DNA of 64,000 nt from Amycolatopsis benzoatilytica AK 16/65 (GTDB taxonomy: Bacteria > Actinomycetota > Actinomycetes > Mycobacteriales > Pseudonocardiaceae): NCBI RefSeq assembly GCF_000383915.1, contig NZ_KB912942.1, positions 4,989,039 to 5,053,038 of the forward strand, in the 5' to 3' direction. Position numbers and translations under genes: made by a program. Below are positions 1,106-59,603 of the stretch, piece by piece (position 1 is the first letter of the stretch; each line of letters starts with the position of its first letter). The notes beneath the pieces are model-generated. The model did no database searches. It had not been told where the DNA came from and was given only the letters and a program-made list of their open reading frames with translations.

Positions 1106-1158
1106 GAGTTGTCGAATCAGAGCTTGTCTCATGTGGTGCGCCGAATGGTCCGCTGGCC

Positions 1159-1215
1159 TGTCCGTGAAGGGCCCTTTGAGGGAATCCAAGTCCCCGAAGG
1201 GGCCCTTCACGGACA
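1159..1215. repeat. Dispersed 3'-end palindrome, copy 1
   Basis: The 16-base arms 1159-1174 and 1200-1215 are perfectly complementary (TGTCCGTGAAGGGCCC and its complement). The middle carries a second, less perfect dyad (GAGGGAATCCAAGTCCCC). It lies 53 bp beyond the stop of the beta-propeller gene at 1269. It is the first of nine loci in this window with the same design. Confidence 0.85.
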
Positions 1216-1268
1216 GACCGGCACACCGGCCGCCCAGAGATCACGACAGCACCACGGGAAACAAGCTT

Positions 1269-5457: not shown

Positions 5458-5573
5458 GTCCGTGAAGGGCCCCTTGACGGAATCCAAGTCCCTCAAGGGG
5501 CCCTTCACGGAATCCAAGTCCCTCAAGGGGCCCCTCACGGAACCCACGTCCCTCAAGGGGCCCCTCACGGACG
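5458..5573. repeat. Dispersed 3'-end palindrome expanded into a 30-bp tandem array, copy 2
   Basis: An inverted half (about 5458-5480, GTCCGTGAAGGGCCCCTT) is followed by three direct 30-bp units at 5481-5510, 5511-5540 and 5541-5570. Each unit has the core GTCCCTCAAGGGGCCC. Each unit can pair with the leading half, so alternative hairpins are possible. The array ends 12 bp before the stop of the oxidoreductase gene at 5586. Because 30 is a multiple of three, the array reads open in several frames. Confidence 0.85.
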
Positions 5574-5585
5574 TTTGCCGGCGGG

Positions 5586-8061: not shown

Positions 8062-8112
8062 CCGTGAAGGGCCCCTTGCCGGAATCTGATTCCGGCAAGG
8101 GGCCCTTCACGG
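8062..8112. repeat. Dispersed 3'-end palindrome, copy 3 (perfect 25-bp arms)
   Basis: 8062-8086 and 8088-8112 are exactly complementary around a single central base, giving a 51-bp perfect palindrome. The arm begins CCGTGAAGGGCCCCTTGCCG. It sits 58 bp beyond the stop of the CoxG gene (8171). Confidence 0.9.
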
Positions 8113-8170: not shown

Positions 8171-8887
8171 TCAGCGCCGCCGCAACTTCCGCAGCACCGC
8201 CACCAGAACCACCAGCAAGACGACCCCGATCGCCACCGGAGCAACCCGCTTGGCCACCGACTGTCCCGCATAATCCAGCAGGTCGATCGCTTCCGCCTCG
8301 CCGGTAGCCCCACCGGCGGGCACGCTGCGCAACCGCGGCTTCTCCTCCTCGGCCGGCTTCTCCGCGACCGGCTTTTCCGCCGCCTTCTCGCTCGCGGCCG
8401 GAACAGCTTCAACCGGCTTCGCTTCCTCAGCCGGAGCCTCCTCCGGCCCGGTCAAAGAAGCAGCCAGGTTCCCCGCGAAAGTATCCAGGATCTTCCCGCC
8501 GACCTCGGAAATCAGCCCGCGCCCGAACTGCGCCGGCCGCCCGGTGATCGCCAGGTCCGTGGCGACCGCCCCGTGCGTCCCGCCGTCCCGCTCGCTCAGC
8601 GTCAGCGTGACGGTCGCGGCCGCGGTGCCGCCGCCCCGGGCGTCTTTCCCGGACGCCTTGATCACGACCTTCCGGGCCGCCTCGTCCTTCTCCAGGAACT
8701 CACCGTGTCCCTTGTACAGCAACGAGATCGGCCCCAGCTTGACCTTCACCGTGCCTGAGAAGGTGTCCCCTTCCACCTTGGTGAGCGAGGCCCCGGGCAT
8801 GCACGGGGCAACCCGCTCCGGGTCGATGACGGCCTGCCAGACCTCCCCGATCGGGGCGGGGACGGTGAATTCGTGGTCGAGCCGCAC
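8171..8887 (-). CDS. coxG: CoxG-like SRPBCC protein with C-terminal membrane anchor
   Basis: 238 residues from a GTG at 8887, chosen because GAGAGGAGG lies seven bases upstream. An ATG 24 bases further up would place that ribosome site inside the gene. Residues 1-150 form a CO-dehydrogenase subunit G/SRPBCC domain (LDHEFTVPAPIGEVWQAVID, CMPGASLTKVEGDTFSG). An Ala/Glu/Pro-rich linker of about 60 residues follows, then one hydrophobic segment and the basic end LRKLRRR. This fits CoxG's proposed job of recruiting molybdenum hydroxylase to the membrane. It follows coxM after a 71-bp gap carrying a palindrome, so it may be transcribed at a lower level. Confidence 0.85.
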   Translation of the reverse strand: MRLDHEFTVPAPIGEVWQAVIDPERVAPCMPGASLTKVEGDTFSGTVKVKLGPISLLYKGHGEFLEKDEAARKVVIKASGKDARGGGTAAATVTLTLSERDGGTHGAVATDLAITGRPAQFGRGLISEVGGKILDTFAGNLAASLTGPEEAPAEEAKPVEAVPAASEKAAEKPVAEKPAEEEKPRLRSVPAGGATGEAEAIDLLDYAGQSVAKRVAPVAIGVVLLVVLVAVLRKLRRR

Positions 8888-8958: not shown

Positions 8959-9006
8959 TCCGGGAAGGACTCGTTGGAGGAATTCCCGCAACGAGTCCTT
9001 CCCGGA
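8959..9006. repeat. Variant 3'-end palindrome, copy 4
   Basis: 8959-8976 and 8989-9006 are perfectly complementary 18-base arms (TCCGGGAAGGACTCGTTG). The loop GAGGAATTCCCG itself contains a small dyad. The layout matches the main family but the arm core differs (GGACTCGTT instead of GGGCCCCTT), and both sides changed together. It begins four bases past the coxM stop at 9011. Confidence 0.8.
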
Positions 9007-13124: not shown

Positions 13125-13180
13125 TGTCCGTGAAGGGCCCCTTGAGGGACTTGGATTCCCGCAAGGGGCCCTTCACGGAC
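13125..13180. repeat. Dispersed 3'-end palindrome, copy 5
   Basis: TGTCCGTGAAGGGCCCCTTG (from 13125) pairs with CAAGGGGCCCTTCACGGAC ending at 13180. The centre is AGGGACTTGGATTCCCG. It lies 68 bp beyond the stop of the XdhC-family gene (13249). Confidence 0.85.
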
Positions 13181-32524: not shown

Positions 32525-32579
32525 GTCCGTGAAGGGCCCCTTCGCGGACTTAGATTCCGGCAAGGGGCCCTTCACGGCA
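32525..32579. repeat. Dispersed 3'-end palindrome, copy 6
   Basis: GTCCGTGAAGGGCCCCTT (from 32525) pairs with AAGGGGCCCTTCACGG near 32576, with CGCGGACTTAGATTCCGGC in the middle. It lies in a convergent gap, 63 bp after the regulator stop and 28 bp from the permease stop. Confidence 0.85.
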
Positions 32580-44244: not shown

Positions 44245-44299
44245 GTCCGTGAAGGGCCCCTTGAGGGACTTGGATTCCGTGAAGGGCCCCTTCACAGAC
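44245..44299. repeat. Dispersed 3'-end palindrome, copy 7
   Basis: GGTCCGTGAAGGGCCCCTT (from about 44244) and GTGAAGGGCCCCTTCAC AGACC (ending 44299) can pair in more than one register, because the second half carries its own full GTGAAGGGCCCCTTCAC dyad. It lies 34 bp after the AcrA1-like stop, in a convergent gap. Confidence 0.8.
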
Positions 44300-44342: not shown

Positions 44343-44399
44343 TGGCCGTGAAGGGAACATTGAGGGACTCTGAGTCCCTCAATGTTCCCTTCACGGCCA
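44343..44399. repeat. Variant 3'-end palindrome, copy 8 (perfect 28-bp arms)
   Basis: 44343-44370 and 44372-44399 are exactly complementary around one base: a 57-bp perfect palindrome. The outer part TGGCCGTGAAGGG is as in the family, but the core is AACATT where others have CCCCTT, with matching changes in the other arm. It lies 29 bp from the MocR stop (44429). Confidence 0.9.
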
Positions 44400-50037: not shown

Positions 50038-50247
50038 ATGAAAGACTTCATGATCGAGTACGTCGCTGCCCGCCAGGCCGAACTGCGCGCCGCCGCCCGC
50101 CCGCAGCTGCGCCCGGTCCGCACCTCCCCGGCCCGGCAGCGACTCGGCTGGTGGCTGATGGAACTGGGCCTGCGCCTGGCCGCTCCCCCAGCCCCGGCCC
50201 CGGCCCCGGCCCCGAGATTCCGTGAAGGGCCCCTTCAGGGAATCTAA
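50038..50247 (+). CDS. 69-residue protein whose end is encoded by the palindromic repeat
   Basis: ATG at 50038 with AGGGGGAATCCTG upstream, 11 bp after the ArsR-type gene. The N-terminal half is basic and helical (MKDFMIEYVAARQAELRAAA, RQRLGWWLMELGLRLAAP). A run of Pro-Ala repeats follows. The last residues (FREGPLQGI) and the stop codon come from the dispersed palindrome that starts at about 50219. This suggests the element replaced the original 3' end. Such short proteins encoded after ArsR/PadR-type regulators are common, but I do not recognise this one. Confidence 0.6.
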   Translation: MKDFMIEYVAARQAELRAAARPQLRPVRTSPARQRLGWWLMELGLRLAAPPAPAPAPAPRFREGPLQGI

Positions 50248-50426
50248 GTCCCTGAATGTTCCCCTCACGCGCGCCGAAGTCCCTGAAGGTTCCCCTCACG
50301 CACGCCGAAGTCCCTGAAGGGGCCCCTCACGGAACCCAAGTCCCTCAAGGTTCCCCTCACGCACGCCGAAGTCCCTGAAGGGGCCCCTCACGGAATCCAA
50401 GTCCCGCAAGGGGCCCCTCACGGACG
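50219..50426. repeat. Dispersed 3'-end palindrome expanded into a six-unit array, copy 9
   Basis: A leading half CCGTGAAGGGCCCCTTCAGG (from 50220) is followed by six units of AGTCCCTnAAnGnnCCCCTCACG, joined by either GGAAYCCA or CGCGCGCCGA/CACGCCGA linkers. Cores alternate between GGGGCCC and GGTTCCC/TGTTCCC. The array covers the whole convergent gap and ends five bases from the sdaA stop (50432). Confidence 0.85.
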
Positions 50427-55588: not shown

Positions 55589-58459
<2,871 letters not shown>

Positions 58460-58462
58460 TGG

Positions 58463-58657
58463 GAACTCCCCCTCTGTCATGGGCACCTGAGAGTTTCACC
58501 GCGCGCTCGGCACGGCTTTCACCTTGGGTGAGGCGCGCGGATGCGCCTTCTTTCCAGAGTGGCCTCGCCAAAAGCGGTAGCGGTTACCTGAGAGATTCCG
58601 GGGAGTTTGCTCCTTCGGTGTCCCACTGATCTCATGGGACTCTCCCGCTCCGGCTCG
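58463..58657 (-). ncRNA. Tandem glycine riboswitch
   Basis: Read on the minus strand, aptamer 1 (about 58657-58570) has GGAGCGGGAGAGTCCC, CACCGAAGGAGCAA and AATCTCTCAGGTAACC. Aptamer 2 (about 58560-58463) has CACTCTGGAAAG, CACCCAAGGTGAAAG, GAAACTCTCAGG and ATGACAGAGGGGGAG. Both have the glycine-binding core of the gcvT motif. The pair lies directly before gcvP and probably turns the operon on when glycine is high. The 3' strand of aptamer 2 contains GGGGGAG, which could also act as the ribosome site. Confidence 0.95.
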
Positions 58658-58780: not shown

Positions 58781-58831
58781 CCGTGAAGGGCCCGTTGCCG
58801 GACTTAGATTCCGGCAAGGGGCCCTTCACGG
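58781..58831. repeat. Dispersed 3'-end palindrome, copy 10 sequence at the ninth locus
   Basis: CCGTGAAGGGCCCGTTGCCG (from 58781) pairs with CGGCAAGGGGCCCTTCACGG (ending 58831) with one mismatch, around GACTTAGATTC. It lies four bases beyond the SDR stop at 58836 and upstream of the glycine riboswitch. Confidence 0.88.
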
Positions 58832-58835
58832 ACAG

Positions 58836-59603
58836 TCACAGCGGGGTCACATAGGCACCGGAGATGCCGCCGTCGACCAGGAACTGCGAAGCGGTGATGA
58901 AGCTCGCGTCGTCGCTCGCGAGGAAGGCGACGGCGGCCGCGATTTCCTCCGGCTCCGCGAACCGGCCGACCGGCACGTGGACCAGCCGCCGCGCGGCGCG
59001 CTCCGGGTCCTTCGCGAACAGCTCCTTCAGCAGCGGGGTGTTGACCGGCCCCGGGCACAGCGCGTTGACCCGGATGTTCTCCCGGGCGAACTGCACGCCC
59101 AGCTCGCGCGTCATGGCGAGCACGCCGCCCTTCGACGCGGTGTAGGAAATCTGCGAGGTCGCCGCTCCCATCACCGCCACGAACGACGCGGTGTTCACGA
59201 TCGAACCGCGGCCCTGGCGCTGCATGTGCGGCAGGACCGCCTTGCAGCACAGGTAAACCGAGGTCAGGTTGACGCGCTGTACCTTCTCCCAGGCTTCGAT
59301 GCCGGTGGTGAGGATCGAGTCGTCCTCCGGCGGCGAGATGCCCGCGTTGTTGAACGCGACGTCGACCGCGCCGAACTGGTCGACGGTCGTCTGGAAGAGG
59401 GCTTCGACCTGGTCCGCGTCGGTCACGTCGACCTGGACGAACTGCCCGCCCACCTCGTCCGCGGCGGCTTTGCCCTGCTCCGGCGTGACGTCGCCGATCA
59501 CTACCTTCGCGCCCTCGCTCGCCAGCCGCTTGGCAGTGGCGAGGCCGATTCCGCTCGCGCCGCCGGTGATCACCGCGACCCGGCCGTCGAAACGCTGCAC
59601 CAT
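58836..59603 (-). CDS. SDR oxidoreductase in the gamma-glutamyl amine operon
   Basis: 255 residues. NAD-binding [24 protein letters not shown], and catalytic Ser/Tyr/Lys (NTASFVAVMG, YTASKGG) are present. Basic residues for NADP are absent and GDV after strand 2 favours NAD(H). The gene starts two bases after the aldehyde dehydrogenase stop, so it is last in a four-gene operon. 3-oxoacyl-ACP-reductase-like annotation is common for this group, but the operon suggests oxidation of an amine-derived alcohol or aldehyde. Substrate unknown. Confidence 0.85.
   Translation of the reverse strand: MVQRFDGRVAVITGGASGIGLATAKRLASEGAKVVIGDVTPEQGKAAADEVGGQFVQVDVTDADQVEALFQTTVDQFGAVDVAFNNAGISPPEDDSILTTGIEAWEKVQRVNLTSVYLCCKAVLPHMQRQGRGSIVNTASFVAVMGAATSQISYTASKGGVLAMTRELGVQFARENIRVNALCPGPVNTPLLKELFAKDPERAARRLVHVPVGRFAEPEEIAAAVAFLASDDASFITASQFLVDGGISGAYVTPL

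Follow-up and report, generated by a model that had tools for sequence, protein, structure and literature searches.

A palindromic DNA family of quantised length, amplified in Amycolatopsis genomes and probably taking over terminator slots at gene 3′ ends

The genome of Amycolatopsis benzoatilytica (G000, the own genome; other G numbers denote relatives' genomes) is rich in a 47-bp palindrome with ends GTGAAGG/CCTTCAC, called the family core throughout. We favour, at a probability of roughly 0.6, the reading that it belongs to a palindromic DNA family of 17+30n bp which is copied round the chromosome, colonises terminator slots and takes them over. The observed parts of this explanation are amplification, a set length across genera, placement at gene 3′ ends, differing dialects and slot differences between species. 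The initial annotation had proposed a recurrently copied element, and hundreds of copies, species-specific dialects, a patchy distribution and an empty site for a longer form bear this out.

The window is a 64,000-nt stretch in which nine places had been listed: 1159, 5458, 8062, 8959, 13125, 32525, 44245/44343, 50219 and 58781. Reading and scanning the window revealed inverted repeats of the described design at all nine. A strict hairpin scan found seven, each at a listed place, and gave 0 hairpins at the same threshold in three block-shuffled copies of the window; those at 1159, 44245 and 50219 were detected by motif or with a looser finder, outside the strict scan's seven. The arms, said to be often perfect, are strictly so in two places, 25 bp long at 8062-8112 and 28 bp long at 44343-44399; elsewhere in the list they are 78-96% complementary. 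The common unit is a 47-mer, starting at 1164, 5462, 8064, 13130, 32529, 44249, 44348, 50222 and 58783. The place at 8959 is missing from this list and its arms differ (GGGAAGGACTCGTTG); in eight relatives, its slot has a recognisable family member. The inner dyad GGAATCCAAGTCC is present, its identity being refined to a 13-bp spacer that separates two 17-bp half-units. At 5459 and 50219 the family forms arrays that repeat every 30 bases or so, and the copy at 1159 lies within a long form of about 150 bp bearing terminal inverted repeats. The features, given without strand, are:

1117-1119 and 1269-1271, TCA flanks of the long form, a 3-bp flanking duplication
1120..1268, long form, about 150 bp, MITE-like, surrounding the 1164 core; ends GAGCTTGTCTCA and ACAAGCTT; boundaries by eye
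1164..1210, 47-bp core, CCCC-like arms, 14/17 outer pairs
5459..5577, array of a 30-base unit (17-bp and 13-bp dyads); units by eye
5462..5508, 47-bp core, the array's first element
8064..8110, 47-bp core, 17/17 outer pairs; perfect full hairpin at 8062-8112
8959..9006, diverged member with GGGAAGGACTCGTTG arms; slot compared with relatives
13130..13176, 47-bp core within a second, partial long-form copy
32529..32575, 47-bp core between convergent genes
44249..44295, 47-bp core; its right half is a 17-mer complementary to itself
44348..44394, 47-bp core, AACA dialect, 17/17 outer pairs, in a convergent spacer
50222..50334, array whose family units are mixed in arm type, the first being the core 50222-50268
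58783..58829, 47-bp core following the minus-strand gene 58836-59603, 6 nt past its stop

Gene 8171-8887 is on the minus strand, and the end of the core at 8064..8110 lies 60 nt beyond the gene's stop. Three further elements were seen in the window. A distinct palindrome at 190-231, CGTGAGTGGCTGAGCCG...CGGCTCAGCCACTCACG, is of CGTGAGTG type; this type recurs in G344 at convergent gene ends, with conserved ends and tip (GGTTCTAACC) and a variable, complementary middle. An inverted repeat at 1052-1111, ATCTCTTTACG...CGTAAAGAGAT, adjoins the inserted long form and is only 74% paired in the own genome; it pairs well in most of nine aligned relatives. A glycine riboswitch lies at 58464-58567 on the minus strand, upstream of gene 55589-58360. 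It is the sole match of the window to Rfam at gathering score, and the palindromes match no curated family there at that score. For one protein encoded in the window, the nearest named relatives, at 90-96% identity, are those of A. orientalis, A. saalfeldensis and A. thailandensis, which places the host in Amycolatopsis.

Further copies, for which the initial annotation had proposed a search of the full genome, are plentiful. In the whole genome, searched as one contig of 8,704,271 bases (8.7 Mb), GTGAAGGGNNNNTT has 370+364 sites against 12+8 for the reversed pattern; copies were counted by fixed-pattern searches with reversed-pattern controls, in place of a covariance model. The 47-bp unit consists of a 17-bp half (GTGAAGG, 3 bases and a CCTT-like end), a 13-bp dyad, which is GGANTCWGANTCC or GGAATCCAAGTCC in the own clade, and a second 17-bp half. 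Its ends are constant, the interior variable yet complementary, with two main arm types in the own genome, GGGCCCC and GGGAACA. Lengths are quantised at 17+30n bp, mostly 47, longer copies gaining 30-bp units. Across 1.664 Mb of the own genome, CCYTCAC follows GTGARGG at a distance of 33 in 92 cases, of 63 in 10, of 3 in 5, of 93 in 4 and of 32 in 4, every other listed distance having at most 3; the reversed-sequence control gave 2 pairs in total. Tips seen inside this 47-bp frame include, among the matches listed, GACTCAGAGTC, CCCTGAAGG, GCGCTAGACGC and CGGCTGAGCCG. Single 17-mers are also common in the congener G246, which has 2445 GTGAAGGGNNNNTT sites.

The AACA copies (n=25) show 1.8% change per arm base. 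Double changes in the arms are paired in 62 cases and unpaired in 5, with 18 expected, counts that are biased upward by the pairing threshold (≥12/17) used to pick the core sets. Past the core, complementarity of the flanks is near expectation except in AACA copies, where the second flanking base is paired in 74% against 53% and, in small numbers, 4 of 27 copies have at least 5 flanking pairs against 1.0 expected. A second 30-base repeat, CCCAATGCCACATTGGG with a TGCATCWGATGCA-like part, has the 17+13 design too and a different sequence; it forms short arrays close to gene 3′ ends (L054 ~136, L074 ~7202, L076 ~5047, L079 ~9504 and L091 ~5662).

We counted GTGAAGG-N33-CCTTCAC in 297 genomes of the bacterial family and compared it with spacings N18-48, as variable-gap pattern matches whose overlaps may affect totals. 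Carriers, with at least 20 exact copies, number 28, and the remaining 269 genomes have at most 13 copies apiece. Summed over the carriers, 4168 of the 4630 pairs spaced 18-48 are at exactly 33: 3063/3478 in 16 Amycolatopsis carriers and 1105/1152 in 12 carriers of other genera. The share is 311/325 in the own genome, 272/301 in G107, 276/288 in G254, 123/124 in G053, 187/191 in G084, 64/64 in G020 and 137/146 in G249, and lowest in G157 (90/125), G183 (88/119) and G273 (34/44). Some non-carriers pair at other spacings, with 0/14 (G141), 3/22 (G239) and 1/16 (G291) at 33.

The clade-specific pattern GTGARGGNNNNNNTNNNGGANTCWGANTCC is present in 27 of 80 congeners and absent in 53, with control matches in 0/80. 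Counts run from 783 in G305 through 480 (G246), 465 (G344), 350 (G311), 326 (own), 315 (G223), 219 (G318) and 160 (G298) down to single copies. At least seven of the 53 negative congeners (G124, G157, G183, G205, G254, G283 and G287) carry 88-276 47-bp frames, with other interiors where these were listed. Arm dialects differ between species: among the copies listed, G298 has GCCTCC, G305 has GAACCC and CTCC, and the own genome AACA and CCCC. Short terminator-like hairpins in other genera (e.g. G152 and G045) also start with GTGAAGG and finish with CCTTCAC, which may hint at the origin of the constant ends.

Genes were called with a codon-usage script written for this analysis. The 118 cores in 1.664 Mb comprise 57 in convergent spacers, 53 in tandem and 5 in divergent ones, 2 at an edge and 1 inside a called gene; intergenic bases alone predict 24/59/33 (convergent/tandem/divergent) for the 115 intergenic cores. 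Among spacers of at least 60 nt, a core is held by 54/145 convergent, 51/456 tandem and 5/215 divergent ones. A search for strong hairpins in 1.264 Mb returned 160, of which a loose motif assigns 72 to the family (37 in convergent, 34 in tandem and 1 in divergent spacers); 32 of the 34 tandem ones are closer to the upstream stop. The other 88 lie in convergent (36), tandem (40) and divergent (4) spacers or in genes (8). Since ordinary hairpins are placed similarly, placement alone cannot separate the family from them. An apparent mutual exclusion with ordinary hairpins within the own spacers (0/22 against 17/30 short convergent spacers at first) was dropped after a control of the same end-window length, which gave 7 convergent cases against 8.1 expected and 8 tandem against 5.8.

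The cores could be sites of an abundant DNA-binding protein of the nucleoid, gyrase or segregation type, with a dimer on each 17-bp dyad, the 30-bp phase setting dyads on one helix face and copies being kept for that role. The 17-bp palindromes at 30-bp phase, the arrays of extra 30-bp units and the many cores found between convergent genes, a likely gathering place of supercoils, would fit such sites. We consider this unlikely: interior bases are unconserved between dialects, and 10 of the 26 Amycolatopsis genomes in the N33 survey have at most 5 exact copies, which speaks against a general host need.

A stable hairpin just downstream of stop codons is a feature of intrinsic terminators, and the cores show it. 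They might be ordinary RNA terminators, vertically inherited, alike through convergence of GC-rich hairpins and with arms that covary under RNA selection; their 3′-end placement resembles that of the own genome's ordinary hairpins, and the core hairpins are very stable. However, no T tract follows the cores (T is 12.4% in the 15 nt after and 19.3% before 41 tandem cores). Nor is there a G-U excess in the arms: on the sense strand, 53 tandem cores have 22 G-U and 22 A-C among 99 mismatches in 901 pairs, whereas 91 ordinary tandem hairpins of the same genome have 29 and 13 (73 mismatches in 1381 pairs; p=0.02), the two sets differing at p=0.08. The absence of both signs speaks against long RNA selection on pairing. 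With the exact length of 47 and constant ends across genera, and dialects that differ between species, it leaves this account quite improbable. A fresh copy may nonetheless work as an RNA hairpin. Of the earlier suggestion of a structural RNA 3′ end, the position at gene 3′ ends and in terminator slots is supported; an RNA-level constraint is not.

Comparison of orthologous slots shows that, where the own genome has a core, relatives carry ordinary terminators or unrelated palindromes at several of the slots compared. The initial annotation had proposed looking for empty orthologous sites, and one was found for the long form at 1120..1268: nine relatives that aligned (14 loci searched) have a short spacer where the own genome has about 150 bp. 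For the bare 47-bp core, a clean empty/filled pair was not seen among the slots compared, with one genome per species; its movement is something we infer. Family palindromes whose arms mostly differ occupy the 8959 slot in eight relatives: GTGAAGGACTCC in G307, G223, G318, G344, G273 and G305, GGGAAGGACTCC in G309 and GTGAAGGGAACCATC in G311, with a rearranged one in G321; the more distant G312, G171, G348, G246 and G205 lack a family core at this position. A core is absent from the 8062 slot in the relatives that aligned, and at 13126 the relatives' spacers, some visible in part, are unrelated, long or short. In G344 the slot of 44348..44394 holds an unrelated palindrome and that of 58783..58829 a core with different arms.

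Three slots were followed through more genomes. Downstream of a gene that we take to be ispG-like from the start of its protein, the own genome and 12 relatives divide into 2 with a core (AACA in the own genome, CTCC in G305), 7 with an ordinary terminator hairpin, 2 with other palindromes and 2 with none evident. The ordinary hairpin, with a GGGCTCC-like stem, occurs in G344, G309, G223, G273, G321, G318 and G307, and is followed by TTTCTTTTT in G344, G223 and G318. The other palindromes are an unrelated CTCGTGAGTG... in G171 and another, farther down, in G311; G312 and G246 have nothing significant. Slot 390808 has a hairpin in the own genome and all 10 relatives, of at least five unrelated kinds (weak in G171, z -1.4); this comparison leaves out G309 and G311, whose matches are on different contigs. 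Cores are found there in the own genome, G223, G307, G344 and G273, the GGACTCC type being common to G223 and G307 and the others differing; G305 has the CTCGTGAGTG type, G318, G312, G171 and G321 have other hairpins, and G246, by eye, a long form with a core. Slot 90732 has cores in the own genome and G311. Neither core nor obvious hairpin was seen in the plain sequence of G312 and G171, and no core in the fetched ends of G344, G223 and G307, whose flanks lie about 1.6 kb apart; this comparison covers these seven of the 13 genomes. A long palindrome, GCTTGTCAAGGC...GCCTTGACAAGC, found in either orientation and common to two species (L317 of G321 and L294 of G311), occupies slots that have GTGAAGG cores in other genomes; a motif scan of the own and G344 stretches did not find it.

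The systematic comparison covers one species pair, the own genome and G344, with 10 informative spacers. Among 94 orthologous 3′ spacers, a core is shared by both genomes in 5, confined to the own genome in 10 and to G344 in 2, and absent from both in 77 (p=0.0009); 8959 is one of the two G344-only cases, with a diverged own copy, and scoring it as shared gives p=6e-5. In the 10 own-only spacers, an ordinary hairpin is present in 0/10 of the own genome and in 6/10 of the G344 partners. Among the 77 spacers with no core, 6 have an ordinary hairpin only in G344 and 3 only in the own genome, and among the five shared spacers the count is one for each genome; 6/10 against 6/77 gives p=0.0003. Among the six hairpins of G344, three are members of different palindrome families (two of CTCGTG and one of CCCAATG type), and one, in a short spacer, is an ordinary terminator that has a T run. 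The remaining two lie in spacers above 600 nt, as does one of CTCGTG type (601 nt).

It could also be that the true mobile unit is a conventional MITE, the long form of about 150 bp with a TNA duplication, and that bare cores are its decayed passengers. Terminal inverted repeats and the TCA flank at 1117/1269, a site that is empty in nine aligned relatives, speak for it. A different long form in G246 also holds a core, and 27 of the 118 cores have at least a loose long-form match alongside. Yet the near-identical AACA cores are mostly bordered by unrelated sequence that reaches to the core's edge, as 23 compared flanks show, and 22 of 25 lack even a loose long-form match; the same core also sits on two unrelated backbones. 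No clear target duplication surrounds the cores (over the many offsets compared, the best excess is 6 against 0.9, and long-form copies are among the 91 in the set); terminal inverted repeats with a target duplication, as in MITEs, are seen for the long form at 1120-1268. We give this account very little chance. The G246 palindromes at L236 6950-7400 and L239 3150-3320 lie within that genome's own long repeat, which has ends GGCAAAGTCGG/CCGACTTTGCC and carries either a single 17-mer or a pair of them at one fixed position. At G000:C1 ~4,972,540, outside the window, the left half of a long form and a core are fused directly to the right flank GGCTTTTC, which in G344 adjoins that genome's own core; the arrangement suggests that a long form was inserted beside a resident core and that the stretch between cores was then deleted.

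The absence of a RAYT gene, noted for the window, holds beyond it: the whole own genome has 0 matches to PF01797, with 5/14 control genomes positive. The same domain (Y1_Tnp) is found in 0/11 Amycolatopsis genomes tested, including G246 with its 2445 sites; eight of the 11 carry the palindrome family in numbers. On the genomes tested, a RAYT is rejected as the copying enzyme in Amycolatopsis. Other genera gave a match in 3/7 genomes tested, one of them partial. By eye, no transposase was seen in the first 60 residues of genes enclosed by 24 core pairs less than 4.5 kb apart, and two query sequences found no match to the family in plasmid and phage collections.

Under the preferred reading of a copied family that takes over terminator slots, a trans-acting protein would recognise either the ends of the unit or its 17-bp dyads, phased at 30 bp, and copy or insert it. 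The unit would settle in hairpin slots just 3′ of stop codons, chiefly between convergent genes, and the resident copy would become the transcript's 3′ hairpin, so that the host tolerates loss of the old terminator. Arm matching may come from perfect masters giving rise to new copies, from one arm templating repair of the other, or from both, rather than from RNA selection. It is possible, and we suggest it only tentatively, that this is an undescribed class of mobile palindrome whose machinery reads only constant 7-bp ends at 17+30n bp and accepts any complementary interior; genomes would then swap terminator sets, and unrelated palindrome families would compete for slots.

Among known systems, the closest in anatomy are REP sequences and REPINs, the latter defined in PMC3116915, with RAYT also called TnpA-REP. 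In the accessible parts of PMC3116915 and PMC3733652, these are short extragenic palindromes with hundreds of copies, tandem clusters and lineage-specific types, in which two inverted half-units round a spacer form one hairpin, with a variable middle and compensatory changes. The family likewise has an extragenic half-unit pair with a spacer at high copy number, yet two tested defining features of REPINs fail. Y1_Tnp is missing from 11/11 Amycolatopsis genomes tested, and the own-genome consensus, with ends GTGAAGG/CCTTCAC and flanks GTCC or GCC, lacks the GTAG/CGTC tag as defined in the available portion of PMC3733652. Unlike REPINs, too, the family has a total length fixed at 17+30n and occurs in place of terminators at orthologous slots. 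The long form is like a MITE in its terminal inverted repeats, in the 3 bp duplicated at its flanks and in the relatives' empty site, whereas the bare core has no clear target duplication and is a near-perfect palindrome throughout. Intrinsic (Rho-independent) terminators, hairpin clusters lacking poly-U among them, are alike in their stable hairpin shortly after the stop codon; the family differs in being repeated in sequence, of set length and copied within the genome, with neither a T tract nor a G-U bias. Inverted pairs of the neisserial uptake sequence, with their dialects and terminator-like position at 3′ ends, also resemble it, but their motif is much shorter and linked to DNA uptake.

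The initial annotation knew of no named family of this description, and our literature search (Amycolatopsis, Pseudonocardiaceae and actinobacteria, with motif or repeats, partly by title) likewise found none. The words actinobacteria, Amycolatopsis, Streptomyces and Mycobacterium are absent from the accessible part of the REP superfamily survey (PMC3733652). As far as their available sections go, PMC8355165 describes clustered hairpins and devotes a section to poly A/U trails being dispensable, the palindromes mentioned in PMC7852140 are regulator sites, and PMC6749651 lists A. mediterranei with 23 satellites and nothing further on it; PMC8266576 and PMC1525189, likewise available in part, give context.

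If the preferred reading is true, copied DNA elements would provide the terminator hairpins of some members of a large actinobacterial genus and exchange them again and again, keeping length and symmetry but not sequence. It makes testable a RAYT-free spread of interspersed palindromes and the joint change of both palindrome arms. As a marker family the copies may help in strain typing, and they bear on terminator prediction in antibiotic-producing Amycolatopsis.
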